This document shows, piece by piece, positions 16,087 through 21,860 of a DNA stretch of 25,206 nt. The stretch is taken from positions 55,261-80,466 of the forward strand of contig MGQK01000081.1 of the NCBI GenBank assembly GCA_001797815.1, given 5' to 3'. The DNA is from Deltaproteobacteria bacterium RBG_13_61_14 (lineage in GTDB: Bacteria; RBG-13-61-14). The translations under genes and the position numbers were made by a program. The notes under the pieces are model-generated. The model was not told the origin of the DNA. It worked only from the letters and a program-made list of their open reading frames with translations, and did no database searches. Numbering within the stretch: position 1 is the stretch's first letter; the number at the start of each line of letters is the position of its first letter.

Positions 16087-16234
16087 AAAGTGCGAAAGTA
16101 TCGTTCCTATTCTTGATTGCATGCCGGCAAACCATTGGGGCGAGCAACCACGCCGCCGCATGGTTACCAGGGAATTTAGATACCATCGGTTTTTTCGCTC
16201 CCTGCCCCGGGACGGGGTATAGAAGGAGGGGTTG

Positions 16235-19132
16235 ATGATCTCTCAAAGACAAGCTATTTTCCGCATTCTTTCGATCTCGGCGCTTCTGTTGATCCAGGTC
16301 TTCATGGGATGCGGCGAGGCGGATGACTCGGAAGACACCGGGCCGCGGGCCCGATTTCAAAAAAATGTCCGGGTCTTTTCCGAAGAAAAGTTTTCCCAGG
16401 TGCGCCTGGACTACGAGAACGACGCGGCCTATTTCCCGCTGCACTATCAGGCGGCCTTGTCCGACCTGGAGCCCGGCCAGATTATCGCGATCACCACCTA
16501 CCCCGGCTTTATCGGGATGGTAACCAATTATGAAACCTTGGGAGGCGAGATCCGGGTGGACGTGATCGAGGTGCCCCTGACCATGGTCTTTGAAGAACTT
16601 TACTTTGATATGCACACCGAACCGGGAGAGACGGTGGTATTCGACACGAGTCAATTCCCGGAGAGCGAAGACCTCGCCATCTCCTCTGCCGGGAAAATTC
16701 CCATTATCTATCTGGGCGGCGGCATCAGCTTGTTGAATCCGCAGTTGGACCTGGCCGTGGAGTCGGTGAACGTAGGCGTGGATATCTGCCCGCCCATGGT
16801 CTGCACCGGCTCTCCCTTTCCGAAGTGCAAGACCAAATGCTCCGGCACCTGGTGGAAACCCTGGACCTGGAAATGCAAAACCAAGTGCTCTCCCCCGACC
16901 TTGAGCTGCGATTTTCAAGAGCCTTACCTCCGTTCGTTCAAGTTCATCACTGATTCCCGGGTGAACTTCGATTTCGACCTCGACGCCCATTACGAACTGA
17001 CCGGCGCTTATACCCGGGAGATGAACCTCGGGCCCAAGGTCGCTTATCCGGTGGGCGTGGTCATGGGCATGAACGTGGAGGTGGTGCCCCAGATGATGGT
17101 GGGCTGCCGGGTCTTTGGCAAAGCCGGGCAAACCCTGCAATACACTTATTTCAGCCATAATGATGTCCGCTCGGGCATGAAATACAACGGCTCCTGGGAG
17201 GGAGTCTTTTCCAAGGATACCGAGACTCATGCCGACAGCGCTTTTGACGACACCAACGCCATGGGCGCGGAATGTTATTTGCGGCCCACGCTCTGGCTCC
17301 GCTTCGCCAATCTGGCCGGTCCCTTTCTGGATATCGGACCTTACGGGGCGTTCGAGATCCATGACGTGGATGATCCTCCCCCCCGGGCGGAAATCAAAAG
17401 CGGCTTCAAGGCCCGGTTAGGCGGCAAGGTCGAGCTCCTGGGAGTGAACTGGCTGAATCTTTCCGCGGCCATGACCCTTTACGATTATGGTTATGTGATC
17501 TGGCAAAGCCGGCCGGAGTGTCCCGCCGGGGAAAGCCGGTGCTGGTCCGATTGGCGTTATCAAGTCTGCGGAGAATACGATCAGGACCCGTACCCGGAGT
17601 GGAGCCTTCCCATTAATTGCCCGCCCGGCGGGGTTTGCCGGCTGAGTTCGGGCGAGACCGAGCCCGGCTACGAATGTTCCATCTGCGGGGATGGAGTGAA
17701 GGACGAGGGGGAAGATTGCGACAGCGACTCCATCGCCTGTCAGATCGGGTGCTATGCCGGAACTCAAGCCTGTAGGCTCGATTGTTCGGGGTACCGGATC
17801 TTTTGCAATATCGGCAGCCAAGCCTGCGGCAATGGGGTGGTGGAAGCATGCGAAGTCTGCGACAGCGACCCGGCCATCCCCTGCACCGACCCGCTGACCA
17901 CTTACCAGGGGGTGGCCTCCTGCCAGGCCGATTGCACGATCTCCCCGGTCTGCCTGCCCACGGAATTCTGCGGCGACGGAACCGTGAACGGTCCGGAAGA
18001 ATGCGATGACGGCAATGCCGGGGACGGCGATGGCTGCTCCAGTAGCTGCCTGATCGAACGCTGCGGCGACGGAATCGTGGATCCCGGCGAAACCTGCGAC
18101 GATTTTCCCCATTCGCCAGCTCTCTTCGGCCGCTACCTCCCTCTCGATGAAGGCCACCGCGCGCTGGCGGTTTCCGGAGACCGCGCTTATGACGGGACCC
18201 TTGACTATAATACCGGCTCGGATCTTGTGCACATCCTGGACCTCACCGAGCCCTACACCGGCGATTCGGACGGCGACCTGATCCCCGACCCCAGCGCCGT
18301 CGGCCAGATCGCCGGCGGCAGTCGAGACCTCGCCCTCCTGGGCGACCGACTCTACAGCCTGGGCCTGGACGGGCTGTGCGAGCGCGATCTCTCCGGCGCG
18401 CCGCCCACCCTGGTCGGCTGCGACCCGCGCGTTACCGACGGAATTCTCGCCGCGGATTTGAACCCCCAACAGGGGCCGCGCGCTTATGTGCTGGGCTATG
18501 ATTTCGGCCACCCGAGTAACTCAGCCGGGTTGCTGGTCTTTAACATCGGAAGTCCGACCAACCCGCCCTCCCTGGCCGGCGCTTACTATGGGGACTACTA
18601 CCAACAGCCAAAGGGCCTGGCGGTTTCCTTTGCCGGCCCGCCCCGGGCTTACGCGCTCTGGGGCTACTCTTCCGGGGCCCCGGTCGGATTCCAGATCTTC
18701 GATATCGCTTCCGACACCCCCGCCCTCTTGTATCAGGACTCCACCATTTCCGGGAATAATCTCCAGGTGTCGGGGAATTACGCTTTTATCGCCACCGACA
18801 CCGGCCTGAAGGTCCTGGACCTCAGCGCGATCCCTCCGGTCTTGGTGACGACCTATCTCACCTGGTCCCCGGTTTACGGGATAGCCCTGCAAGACCCGCG
18901 GGCTTATCTTTCCAGCCTCAACTCGCGCATCACCGTGCTCGATATCGGCGCCCTGGTCCAAGACCTGCCGCCCCGCGTGGTGGGCTGGTATGACCTGCCC
19001 GCGGATTACTGCGAGGACCTGGCCGCGGTCGGCCCGCGCCTTTACGGTTCTTGCCGCGACCAGGGTTTTGTGGTCTGGAACATTGATGAATCCGGTCGGT
19101 GCAACGACACCTGCGATGGTTTCAATCCCTGA
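16235..19132 (+). CDS. Large Cys-rich lipoprotein with Myxococcus-type repeats and a beta-propeller-like C-terminus
   Basis: 965 aa from the ATG at 16235, with GAAGGAGG 6 nt upstream. The signal ISALLLIQVFMGC ends in an atypical lipobox (FMGC, C26). The N-terminal half is beta-rich and contains a Cys/Trp/Lys segment with KCKTKC twice. Four repeats of the CGDGxxxxxExCD type start near residues 484, 531, 579 and 610; the third (CGDGTVNGPEECDDGN then GDGDGCSSSC) is a full Myxococcus cysteine-rich/DUF4215-type repeat. From about residue 630 to the end, repeated strands such as DLVHILDL, GLLVFNI, VGFQIFDI, GLKVLDLS and RITVLDIG suggest an LVIVD-like beta-propeller. No enzyme motif is seen; a surface adhesion or binding role is an inference. 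It is divergent from the acylase gene. Confidence 0.85.
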   Translation: MISQRQAIFRILSISALLLIQVFMGCGEADDSEDTGPRARFQKNVRVFSEEKFSQVRLDYENDAAYFPLHYQAALSDLEPGQIIAITTYPGFIGMVTNYETLGGEIRVDVIEVPLTMVFEELYFDMHTEPGETVVFDTSQFPESEDLAISSAGKIPIIYLGGGISLLNPQLDLAVESVNVGVDICPPMVCTGSPFPKCKTKCSGTWWKPWTWKCKTKCSPPTLSCDFQEPYLRSFKFITDSRVNFDFDLDAHYELTGAYTREMNLGPKVAYPVGVVMGMNVEVVPQMMVGCRVFGKAGQTLQYTYFSHNDVRSGMKYNGSWEGVFSKDTETHADSAFDDTNAMGAECYLRPTLWLRFANLAGPFLDIGPYGAFEIHDVDDPPPRAEIKSGFKARLGGKVELLGVNWLNLSAAMTLYDYGYVIWQSRPECPAGESRCWSDWRYQVCGEYDQDPYPEWSLPINCPPGGVCRLSSGETEPGYECSICGDGVKDEGEDCDSDSIACQIGCYAGTQACRLDCSGYRIFCNIGSQACGNGVVEACEVCDSDPAIPCTDPLTTYQGVASCQADCTISPVCLPTEFCGDGTVNGPEECDDGNAGDGDGCSSSCLIERCGDGIVDPGETCDDFPHSPALFGRYLPLDEGHRALAVSGDRAYDGTLDYNTGSDLVHILDLTEPYTGDSDGDLIPDPSAVGQIAGGSRDLALLGDRLYSLGLDGLCERDLSGAPPTLVGCDPRVTDGILAADLNPQQGPRAYVLGYDFGHPSNSAGLLVFNIGSPTNPPSLAGAYYGDYYQQPKGLAVSFAGPPRAYALWGYSSGAPVGFQIFDIASDTPALLYQDSTISGNNLQVSGNYAFIATDTGLKVLDLSAIPPVLVTTYLTWSPVYGIALQDPRAYLSSLNSRITVLDIGALVQDLPPRVVGWYDLPADYCEDLAAVGPRLYGSCRDQGFVVWNIDESGRCNDTCDGFNP

Positions 19133-19625: not shown

Positions 19626-20231
19626 ATGCTGGACGTCAAAGAGATTGAAGTATCCAAACTGAAGCCCTGGGAGGATAACCCTCGCTTCAACGATCATGCG
19701 GTGGACTCTGTGGCGAAAAGCATCCAGACCTTCGGCTTCAATGTCCCAATTCTTTACGACCAAAACTTCACTATCATTGCCGGGCACACCCGCTGGAAGG
19801 CGGCCCAAAAGCTCGGCATGACTCATGTGCCCGCCATTATGCTTGATTTAAACGACTCGCAAAGGAAGGCCTTTTCCGTCGCCGACAATAAGCTGGCCTC
19901 ATTGGCGGATTGGGATGAGGAACTGGTCACCAAAATCCTTGAGGAGTTGAAATTCGAGAACTTTGACCTCTCTTCCCTGGGATATTCGGAGGCCGAATTG
20001 GAGGCGTTGATGGCTCCCCTTCAGGATTTCAATTGGGAAGAGTCCAATGATTACCTGACCAAAGAAATGGAGACAATTAATGCCGTATTACAATTTAAGA
20101 TAAAACTTGCGCTCAAGGATCAGGTCCTAACCGCAATCAAGCAGTATGCACTTAAGCGCGGGATGAAGGAAAAGGACTCGGCAGTCTTGGCGGGAAACGT
20201 CCTGTGTCATCTCCTGGGAGTGAACCTATGA
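19626..20231 (+). CDS. ParB/sulfiredoxin-fold N-terminal domain protein (IbrB-like)
   Basis: 201 aa. Residues about 1-95 form a ParB N-terminal domain: EIEVSKLKPWEDNPR (xNPR box at 18-20), AKSIQTFGFNVPILYD, and GHTRWKAAQKLG (53-64) in place of the classical GERRxxA box, then VPAIMLDL and ADNKLA. No HTH/KorB domain follows; the remaining about 100 residues are helical and unassigned. This domain type is found in phage and island proteins and, paired with a PAPS-reductase-like gene, in IbrA/IbrB-type pairs. AGAGGAG lies 6 nt before the ATG. The stop overlaps the next start as ATGA (20228-20231), so expression is coupled to the PP-loop protein. Base composition is lower in GC than the main flanking genes. 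Confidence 0.85.
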   Translation: MLDVKEIEVSKLKPWEDNPRFNDHAVDSVAKSIQTFGFNVPILYDQNFTIIAGHTRWKAAQKLGMTHVPAIMLDLNDSQRKAFSVADNKLASLADWDEELVTKILEELKFENFDLSSLGYSEAELEALMAPLQDFNWEESNDYLTKEMETINAVLQFKIKLALKDQVLTAIKQYALKRGMKEKDSAVLAGNVLCHLLGVNL

Positions 20232-21457
20232 ATAAAGTCCTCACTGAAAAAGTCCACAAGACCATCACCCGCCTTCGGACCATTTGGCCCAAGCTGGAAG
20301 GAAAGTATCCCTTTATCGCATTTTCAACCGGCAAGGACAGCCTTGCTATGGCGGCTCTCATCTATGAGGCGGTTGAGCCTGAAAAGCCAATCTGTCTTTA
20401 TGCCCATCACGACCTTGAATTCCCCAGCAACCTTGAATATCTTGCCCTCCTTATCCAGCGGGGATTTGCCATAAAGACGGCCAAGCCATTTCTGGAATAT
20501 TTTGAGTTGATGGAAAAGGGTATCAGCTTCTTGACCCTGGTTGAAGCCTGGTGTATCCCGCTATTGATCGGAACGACCTTTCTGGAATGGCTGCAACAAC
20601 AAGGAGCGAGAAGCCCCAGAGAGGGAGTGATGTTCCGGGGGATTTCAGGCAGTGAATATAGTCATAGATTCCACGGCGGGTTGGAACTGAACAAGGCGCT
20701 GAACTTACCCTGCTTCAATCCGATGCTGGAATTCACCAAGGAGGACATCCTTGAATTGATCCACACCCGCTACGGCCTTCCCCTCAATCCCATCTATGAA
20801 CACATGGACCGGACCTACTGCATTTGCTGTTACACCTCTGATGCCAAGAGACAGGAATACTGTCAAAAGCACTATCCAGAAGAATGTAAGAAGTATTACA
20901 GCCAGATTGAGAAGCTGCTTTTCGACAGCGGGCTGATCGAAAAGGTCCATCAGAAGGAGAGGTTCAAAACCCGCGAGGGAAAACTCTTTCGGCATGGTTT
21001 TGCCCATTGGCATAGGCTGAAAGCGCAGAAGGTGATGGGGGCAATTAAGCATCGGCTCTCTTCCGGTTCCATCCTGTATCAAATTCGGGACAATGATTTG
21101 ATTGACGCCAAGCATCTGACCCCGGTGAAAGGGAAGTGGGTCCGCAAAGGGAATGAGATCAGGTTTTGGGAGGTTCCAGAGCGGGTTACCGACACGTTGA
21201 TTAAAAGAATGATCAACTGTCTGGATTGCGGCTTTTGCATAGGAGAATGCTTCCCATGTCGGAGATTTGACCGCGAATCCAAAAGGCTTAGAATTGAGGG
21301 GTGCATCCAATGCGGGCGATGCTTGACCTTGACGTATTGCATGGGGCGGCGTCATCGCTTCTGGCGAAGGGTCATTGTGGAGAATACAGCTCATGGGCAC
21401 AAAGCAAGACAAGAAGAATTTGTCGCTGTTCCCGCTGCCGCGGCCTCCGGTCTCTAA
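20228..21457 (+). CDS. PAPS reductase-like PP-loop ATPase with Cys-rich C-terminal iron-sulfur-like domain
   Basis: 409 aa from the ATG overlapping the upstream stop. The PP-loop FSTGKDS (32-38) and HDLEFPSN (61-68) define the adenine-nucleotide-alpha-hydrolase/PAPS-reductase fold. A mid-region CICC motif (YCICCYTSD) and further Cys follow. The C-terminus holds C331-x2-C334-x2-C337-x3-C341-x2-C344 and C359-x2-C362-x2-C365-x5-C371, a ferredoxin-like arrangement that could carry one or two Fe-S clusters. Related proteins activate a substrate with ATP for sulfur transfer (tRNA thiolation, DndC/SspD-type DNA phosphorothioation) or reduce PAPS; there is no evidence for sulfate assimilation genes nearby. 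The 3' end overlaps the start of the DUF523 gene by 65 bp, so all three genes form one tight operon. The substrate is unknown. Confidence 0.85.
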   Translation: MNKVLTEKVHKTITRLRTIWPKLEGKYPFIAFSTGKDSLAMAALIYEAVEPEKPICLYAHHDLEFPSNLEYLALLIQRGFAIKTAKPFLEYFELMEKGISFLTLVEAWCIPLLIGTTFLEWLQQQGARSPREGVMFRGISGSEYSHRFHGGLELNKALNLPCFNPMLEFTKEDILELIHTRYGLPLNPIYEHMDRTYCICCYTSDAKRQEYCQKHYPEECKKYYSQIEKLLFDSGLIEKVHQKERFKTREGKLFRHGFAHWHRLKAQKVMGAIKHRLSSGSILYQIRDNDLIDAKHLTPVKGKWVRKGNEIRFWEVPERVTDTLIKRMINCLDCGFCIGECFPCRRFDRESKRLRIEGCIQCGRCLTLTYCMGRRHRFWRRVIVENTAHGHKARQEEFVAVPAAAASGL

Positions 21458-21860
21458 AGAGCCGGTGTTGATCAGCGCTTGTTTCCTGGGGATTCCCTGT
21501 CGCTGGCATGGGCGGAGGCCAAAGAAGAGGGATAAACTGATCGAGAAGCTCAAGGAGAGATATGTGCTGGTCCCGGTTTGCCCGGAACAGCTTGGCGGCA
21601 TGCCCACGCCCCGGACCGGGGAATACCTTCAAGGCACGGGAGCGCAAGTCCTGGACGAAGGATTGCGGATTATCGCGCCGGAGACTGGGCAGGATGTTAC
21701 CAGCTTCCACCTGAATGGCGCTCACTATACGCTTGAGCTGGCCCAGATTATTGGGGCGAGGCGGGCCTACCTCAAGGGTGGCTCCCCCTCCTGCGACCGG
21801 GATGGCGTAACCGGCGAAGTTCTCAAGCGCGCTGGCATCAAGGTCATCAGAGTGCCTTGA
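21393..21860 (+). CDS. DUF523-family protein (thiouracil desulfidase-like)
   Basis: 155 aa from the ATG at 21393 with GTGGAGA 9 nt upstream; an in-frame TTG at 21375 is less likely. Family motifs are ISACFLGIPCRWHG (C30, C36), PVCPEQLGGMPTPR (C63), GEYLQGTG, DVTSFHLNGA and LKGGSPSCD (C134). DUF523 includes TudS-type enzymes, which use a cysteine-bound 4Fe-4S cluster to remove sulfur from thiouracil, and C30, C63 and C134 are the likely ligands. It begins inside the 3' end of the PP-loop gene in another frame, so the association is very tight. In this setting it may process a thiolated product or intermediate of the PP-loop enzyme; that link is inference. The extra N-terminal 20 residues (KQDKKNLSLFPLPRPP) are not typical. 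Confidence 0.88.
   Translation: MGTKQDKKNLSLFPLPRPPVSKEPVLISACFLGIPCRWHGRRPKKRDKLIEKLKERYVLVPVCPEQLGGMPTPRTGEYLQGTGAQVLDEGLRIIAPETGQDVTSFHLNGAHYTLELAQIIGARRAYLKGGSPSCDRDGVTGEVLKRAGIKVIRVP

Follow-up and report, generated by a model that had tools for sequence, protein, structure and literature searches.

The DUF523-family desulfidases TudS and RudS have been described in nucleotide salvage and in the removal of s4U from tRNA (PMC10611767, PMC11417400). TudS is a 4-thio-UMP desulfidase of known structure (PDB 6z92-6z96, 6zw9), and RudS is a TudS-DUF1722 protein. PP-loop domains with conserved cysteines occur in DndC, SspD and BrxP, the last of which has a ferredoxin-type tail; surveys of phosphorothioate and BREX systems make no mention of DUF523 (PMC10853773, PMC12839542). 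ParB-like and PAPS-reductase-like proteins are paired in IbrA/IbrB and in other phage pairs, and TtuA and LarE combine the PP-loop fold with a [4Fe-4S] cluster. Work by Iyer et al. in 2013 on DNA base modification systems is also relevant background. An earlier note on the DNA analysed here knew of no described system with ParB, PP-loop and DUF523 parts together. Our text search of the literature, which was partial in coverage and leaves earlier mention of parts possible, likewise returned no paper joining the three. Nor did we find a described system in which a PP-loop enzyme that adds sulfur is combined with a TudS enzyme that removes it.

The three parts stand together in the window, by which we mean the whole stretch of 25,206 nucleotides that was analysed (genome G000, contig C81). 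The cassette consists of three genes:

19626..20231, + strand: ParB/Srx-fold protein, 201 aa, with GHTR and a small conserved C-terminal part; matches ParB_N
20228..21457, + strand: PP-loop ATP-pyrophosphatase (PAPS-reductase superfamily), 409 aa, with STGKDS, C109, CICC (198-201) and a ferredoxin-like tail
21393..21860, + strand: DUF523/TudS-like desulfidase, 155 aa from ATG 21393; short form with CRWHG and SPSCD; matches PF04463

The three reading frames, their positions and their overlaps agree with the earlier note: the ParB and PP-loop genes share an ATGA at 20228-20231, and the PP-loop and DUF523 genes overlap by 65 bp if DUF523 begins at ATG 21393. An alternative start at TTG 21375 would give a DUF523 protein of 161 aa. 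All three proteins score above the curated Pfam cut-offs, the PP-loop protein by a narrow margin. The cassette's neighbours in the window are ordinary chromosomal genes. We saw no virus genes beside it, no direct or inverted repeats around it and no tRNA genes within the window, and the cassette itself holds no cysteine desulfurase. Just upstream, window positions 16232-19132 encode a large protein with a Cys-rich middle and with matches to DUF4215-like and LVIVD repeats.

How closely does the third protein resemble TudS? PF04463 (2-thiour_desulf) matches it at 7e-22 (78.4 bits against a cut-off of 34.7), and its AlphaFold model (pLDDT 88.3) retrieves the TudS crystal structures by Foldseek with E 2.9e-12 and a TM of 0.71. 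The earlier note had remarked on its cysteines, and the likeness extends to the full TudS active site. TudS residues C10, C43, C104, E45, S101, S103 and R17 correspond to C36, C69, C140, E71, S137, S139 and R43 of the window protein (161-aa numbering); thus the fold, the cluster cysteines, the Glu, the two Ser and the Arg17 equivalent are shared, and every cluster ligand and catalytic residue is kept. The three cluster cysteines and the TudS domain are also common to RudS. We therefore predict that the window DUF523 protein is a sulfur eraser.

The window protein nevertheless falls outside the ordinary cellular DUF523 proteins, which include the characterised salvage type. In a tree of 56 sequences, from which the crystallised TudS was left out, 10 cassette-type and 15 viral DUF523 proteins formed one clade (98/91) apart from the 31 others, among which were second copies from the same genomes. 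The clade is marked by CR[WY]HG, by SPSCD in most members and by a shorter C-terminal part; in 20 members the three Cys, the Glu and the first Ser are invariant and the second Ser is nearly so. Cellular TudS has an IYDGSF..G stretch after the third Cys that the window clade lacks. DUF1722 is likewise absent, and the clade proteins are too short to hold it. A second DUF523 protein in the L001 genome is of the ordinary kind: it is 36% identical and has the usual long C-terminal part. Judged by sequence, the DUF523 proteins of the cassettes form a clade of their own, apart from the ordinary cellular copies and tied to a ParB-linked PP-loop protein of the RTxCxCC type.

The PP-loop protein contains the FSTGKDS motif and the nine C-terminal cysteines to which the earlier note had drawn attention. 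The latter (C331, C334, C337, C341, C344, C359, C362, C365 and C371) lie in the ferredoxin-like tail and include two C..C..C motifs, at 331 and 359, an arrangement typical of 2[4Fe-4S] ferredoxins. C109, C198, C200 and C201 show little or no variation among relatives. Pfam PAPS_reduct matches the protein at 5e-05 (23.8 bits; curated cut-off 22.5), and there are weak matches to PRK13795 and BrxP; the BrxP model aligns with the PP-loop domain at 2.2e-12, partially, over residues 4-244. The AlphaFold model (pLDDT 77.7) is that of a PP-loop ATP pyrophosphatase. Its structural matches, LarE with and without [4Fe-4S], TtuA, GMP and NAD synthetases and CysH folds, are about equal, so that the reaction cannot be read from the fold by itself. 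TtuA and LarE, though among the closest structural matches, are about 14% identical to the window protein and have other partners and another cysteine arrangement. Given the partner enzyme and the cysteine set, sulfur transfer is the likeliest chemistry, and we predict that this protein is the sulfur writer of the cassette.

Membership in Dnd, Ssp and IbrA/IbrB was considered and dropped. DndC matched at 0.026 only, and no NCBIfam DndC model did so at E up to 0.1. Among those window proteins that were scanned by Pfam, which represent part of the window's ORFs, there were none of dndBDE or sspABC and no PglZ, BrxC, BrxL or DUF4007. The module differs from DndC, SspD and BrxP in its RTxCxCC motif and in its DUF523 partner, present in every viral case found. 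Similarly, DUF3440, which is found in IbrA, was not detected by Pfam in the cassette.

ParB_N matches the first protein at 2.2e-12 (47.3 bits against a cut-off of 26.3), while the NCBIfam partition-protein models all stay below their cut-offs. Against PHROG, the protein resembles ParB-like proteins (2.6e-48) and the N-termini of phage DNA methyltransferases (1.6e-40), and viral contigs contain fusions of this ParB domain with N6_N4 DNA methylases. The earlier note had seen GHTR in place of GERR. The substitution is real, and the window protein is without the GERR CTPase box, but it is not odd: GHTR is the usual motif in the phage-type ParB group to which the protein belongs. Full-length relatives are 64% (L004/L008), 52% (L009) and 45% (L010) identical. 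This protein is a predicted DNA-targeting or nucleotide-binding subunit.

Single-sequence scans with the PP-loop protein found nothing in genome or viral contigs; alignments were required for its relatives to be detected. A delta-proteobacterial MAG (G002) has a PP-loop protein 75% identical to that of the window, and G026 one 59-60% identical, both with the same neighbours. An alignment-based scan of genome contigs then gave further loci in Planctomycetota and Hydrogenedentota. The cassette is complete and in the window order in L009 and L010. In L005 the edge of the contig leaves just the end of ParB, and L011 has no recognisable ParB. The PP-loop gene is rare (3/386 sampled genomes). Because the same order recurs, the arrangement is far beyond chance. 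The earlier note had asked whether DUF523 adjoins the pair in this contig only; the linkage is found in other genomes and in viruses of both bacteria and archaea, and the genes behave as one recurrent module, in the same order in the delta-proteobacterial MAG, Planctomycetota, Hydrogenedentota and G026. Across these bacterial phyla, DUF523 proteins share 66-81% identity with the window copy, which points to horizontal spread of the cassette among them.

Several features were noted around the bacterial loci. The 3' end of the tmRNA gene is a common integration site, and the cassette remnant of L012 starts right behind such an end (L012:6429-6781). In L005 a tRNA-Sec gene lies about 0.9 kb from the cassette, accompanied by a small-gene pair resembling a nucleotidyltransferase/HEPN-type pair (L005:5-103 and L005:94-859). 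The Hydrogenedentota cassette is flanked by 250-bp direct repeats, 77% alike (L010:6876-7125 and L010:10127-10376), each inside the ORF of a small HTH-like protein; they may be a trace of a mobile element or of a duplication. Radical-SAM-like proteins are encoded near DUF523 in three loci (L018:3750-4715, L187:3861-4799 and L012:8485-9627).

Not every bacterial locus retains the writer. The PP-loop gene is reduced to its end in L013 and L187 and has lost its first part in L012; DUF523 is kept at all three loci, intact in L012 and L013. Cassette-type DUF523 genes also stand alone (L222-L226) in 5/392 sampled Planctomycetota genomes, at three tree positions. Eight bacterial loci in all have an eraser without an intact writer; the converse, an RTxCxCC PP-loop gene lacking DUF523, turned up at none of the loci searched. 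Between the stub-locus copies L013 and L114, dN/dS is about 0.11, indicating purifying selection on DUF523 there, although part of the divergence may predate the loss. A further PP-loop remnant before DUF523 in L018 was suggested by eye and not by HMM.

A DUF523 match led to the Methanoculleus virus L4768/Blf4, a lytic archaeal virus in culture (PMC8540584). Its gp05, annotated as a methylase, is instead a fusion of ParB_N with PAPS_reduct, and it is followed by gp06, a DUF523 protein, and gp07, the terminase large subunit. By profile comparison, the ParB parts of the bacterial and viral forms match with 99.3% probability (2.5E-20), and the bacterial PP-loop protein matches the viral fusions with 96.0% probability (4E-09). 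Scanning with the Blf4 fusion returned 17 viral loci. All six with a PP-loop partner (L025-L030) have DUF523 next door, whereas the 11 that match in the ParB part only (L019-L024 and L031-L035) have no DUF523; the four of these 11 that were checked are all DNA methylase fusions. A second viral scan added loci with the same split. DUF523 is present in 16/16 contigs with the R[ST]ACW[CM]C motif, compared with 0/29 loci whose PAPS-like genes are of another type (Fisher p about 3e-12, computed on 15/0 versus 0/30 with kinship among loci ignored). Does the link extend to any ParB/PAPS pair? Other viral ParB and PAPS genes (L096 and L104) lack CxCC and lack DUF523 as well, so the link is to the RTxCxCC PP-loop type.

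The unbiased test was a DNA pattern for TACWCCP alone, applied to viral contigs and blind to both ParB and DUF523. It matched 71 stretches, of which 18 were PP-loop genes, seven contigs being newly found. DUF523 overlapped or lay no more than 3 bp away, on either strand, in 18/18, several of which are near-copies, so that the independent cases are fewer. ParB was fused in every case in which the gene lay wholly inside the stretch. In L071 the three are separate genes in the window order. At the level of sequence comparison, these results establish the three genes as a conserved unit.

Viral DUF523 genes are often convergent with the PP-loop gene rather than co-transcribed, and terminase genes were confirmed near several viral modules. 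A defence role, which the earlier note had thought possible, fits poorly with these locations: the relatives were met with in regions of viral packaging or as isolated cassettes, and not in defence islands. We conclude that the setting of the module is viral. A small clamp-loader-like ATPase gene adjoins the viral DUF523 gene on the same strand in two loci (L025:1927-2580 and L026:6955-7668). A PP-loop protein that has CWCC and a ferredoxin tail is also encoded on a plasmid of Methanobacterium congolense (L016:3950-5095), but neither ParB nor DUF523 turned up within about 4 kb of it. An Acinetobacter phage record has DUF523 among bacterial-looking genes, without ParB or PP-loop.

What might such a module do? 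We favour a mechanism, to which we give somewhat less than an even chance, in which a ParB-guided PP-loop enzyme thiolates a DNA base carbonyl and the relative of TudS takes the sulfur off again, from nucleotides or at misplaced sites. The ParB domain would carry the PP-loop enzyme to DNA, as it may carry the fused DNA methylases of sister viral genes. The PP-loop domain would adenylate the base carbonyl with ATP, and the oxygen would be replaced by sulfide held on a CxCC/C109 Fe-S cluster, in TtuA/LarE-like chemistry; electrons or sulfur may come from the ferredoxin tail that the bacterial form has. At its three-Cys [4Fe-4S] cluster the TudS-like protein would reverse C=S groups, acting on free thio-nucleotides from modified DNA or on misplaced sites and so sparing the host or the replicating virus from poisoning. 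We infer DNA as the target by analogy, the same ParB domain being otherwise fused to DNA methylases. The product would be a base C=S, since TudS cleaves C=S; its action on thiocarbonyl bases makes base modification a better fit than a backbone phosphorothioate. Several observations count against this mechanism: the PP-loop fold is common to non-sulfur enzymes, GMP and NAD synthetases ranking equally; the cassette lacks a cysteine desulfurase; the window copy has ordinary chromosomal genes and no virus genes for neighbours; and the DUF523 genes that stand as orphans point to a role independent of the writer.

Those orphans would suit an addiction or conflict module, in which thiolation of DNA, tRNA or nucleotides by the ParB/PP-loop pair is harmful to the cell and DUF523 serves as the antidote; the orphan bacterial genes would then be immunity genes against such viruses. 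The one-sided loss at eight loci and the repeated origin of eraser-only states on the tree favour this, yet a costly partner would also be lost first from a plain writer/eraser pair, and the frequent convergent orientation of viral DUF523 is unlike most toxin-antitoxin operons. We regard this explanation as unlikely, if the most serious of the competitors. Remodelling of tRNA has a smaller chance. Here the PP-loop enzyme would thiolate tRNA, as TtuA, TtcA and ThiI do, and the TudS-like protein would remove host s4U or s2U, as RudS does; the structural matches to TtuA agree with this, as do the removal of tRNA s4U by RudS and the occurrence of RudS genes in phages (PMC11417400). The ParB partner and its exchange with DNA methylases, however, point to DNA, and Pfam found neither an RNA-binding domain (THUMP, PUA) nor DUF1722 in the module.

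Sulfur might instead enter the DNA backbone, in a phosphorothioate modification of the Dnd/Ssp/BREX-4 kind with a TudS-like sulfur handler added. The BrxP match over the PP-loop domain speaks for this idea, as does the C-terminal ferredoxin-type region of BrxP (PMC12839542). We nonetheless consider it improbable: no DndB/D/E, SspB/C or PglZ was noticed in the flanks read around complete cassettes, DndC models matched only at 0.026-0.034, and known TudS chemistry acts on C=S and not on P-S. More doubtful still is a sulfur relay, in which DUF523 would take sulfide from a thio-nucleotide as [4Fe-5S] and hand it to the PP-loop enzyme, the two working in series and not in opposition. TudS does form a [4Fe-5S] intermediate (PMC10611767), the module lacks a cysteine desulfurase and the genes are very tightly linked; against this, DUF523 persists at orphan and stub loci where the writer is gone, and TudS readily releases sulfide (PMC10611767). 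Ordinary sulfur metabolism, with an assimilatory PAPS/APS reductase beside a TudS salvage enzyme, could draw on the PAPS_reduct match and the CysH folds among the structural matches. We dropped it as very improbable. The C-terminal ECGxH motif (ECG[IL]H) is absent from 7/7 PP-loop relatives and no NCBIfam CysH equivalog model matched at E up to 0.1, which bears out, by sequence motifs, the view that this is no assimilatory reductase, the second point on which the earlier note had let its reading depend; the recurrent ParB partner and the viral location are also unexpected for one.

The addiction, tRNA, phosphorothioate and relay explanations rank behind base thiolation. Our overall reading, which we offer tentatively, is of a virus-encoded, reversible thiolation of DNA bases with a dedicated eraser, from which cassettes have spread to chromosomes, the eraser alone sometimes being kept. 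In a bolder form, the thiocarbonyl may be an intermediate into which an altered TudS swaps another group, yielding a new hypermodified base. Because a carrier virus, Blf4, is in culture (PMC8540584), base thiolation is directly testable. The superfamilies of all the parts are known; the novelty lies in how they are combined and in the dedicated TudS clade. If the reading is true, some viruses thiolate DNA bases and carry a matching eraser. A kind of DNA modification would then be added beside the phosphorothioates, and a role would be given to a clade of TudS proteins.
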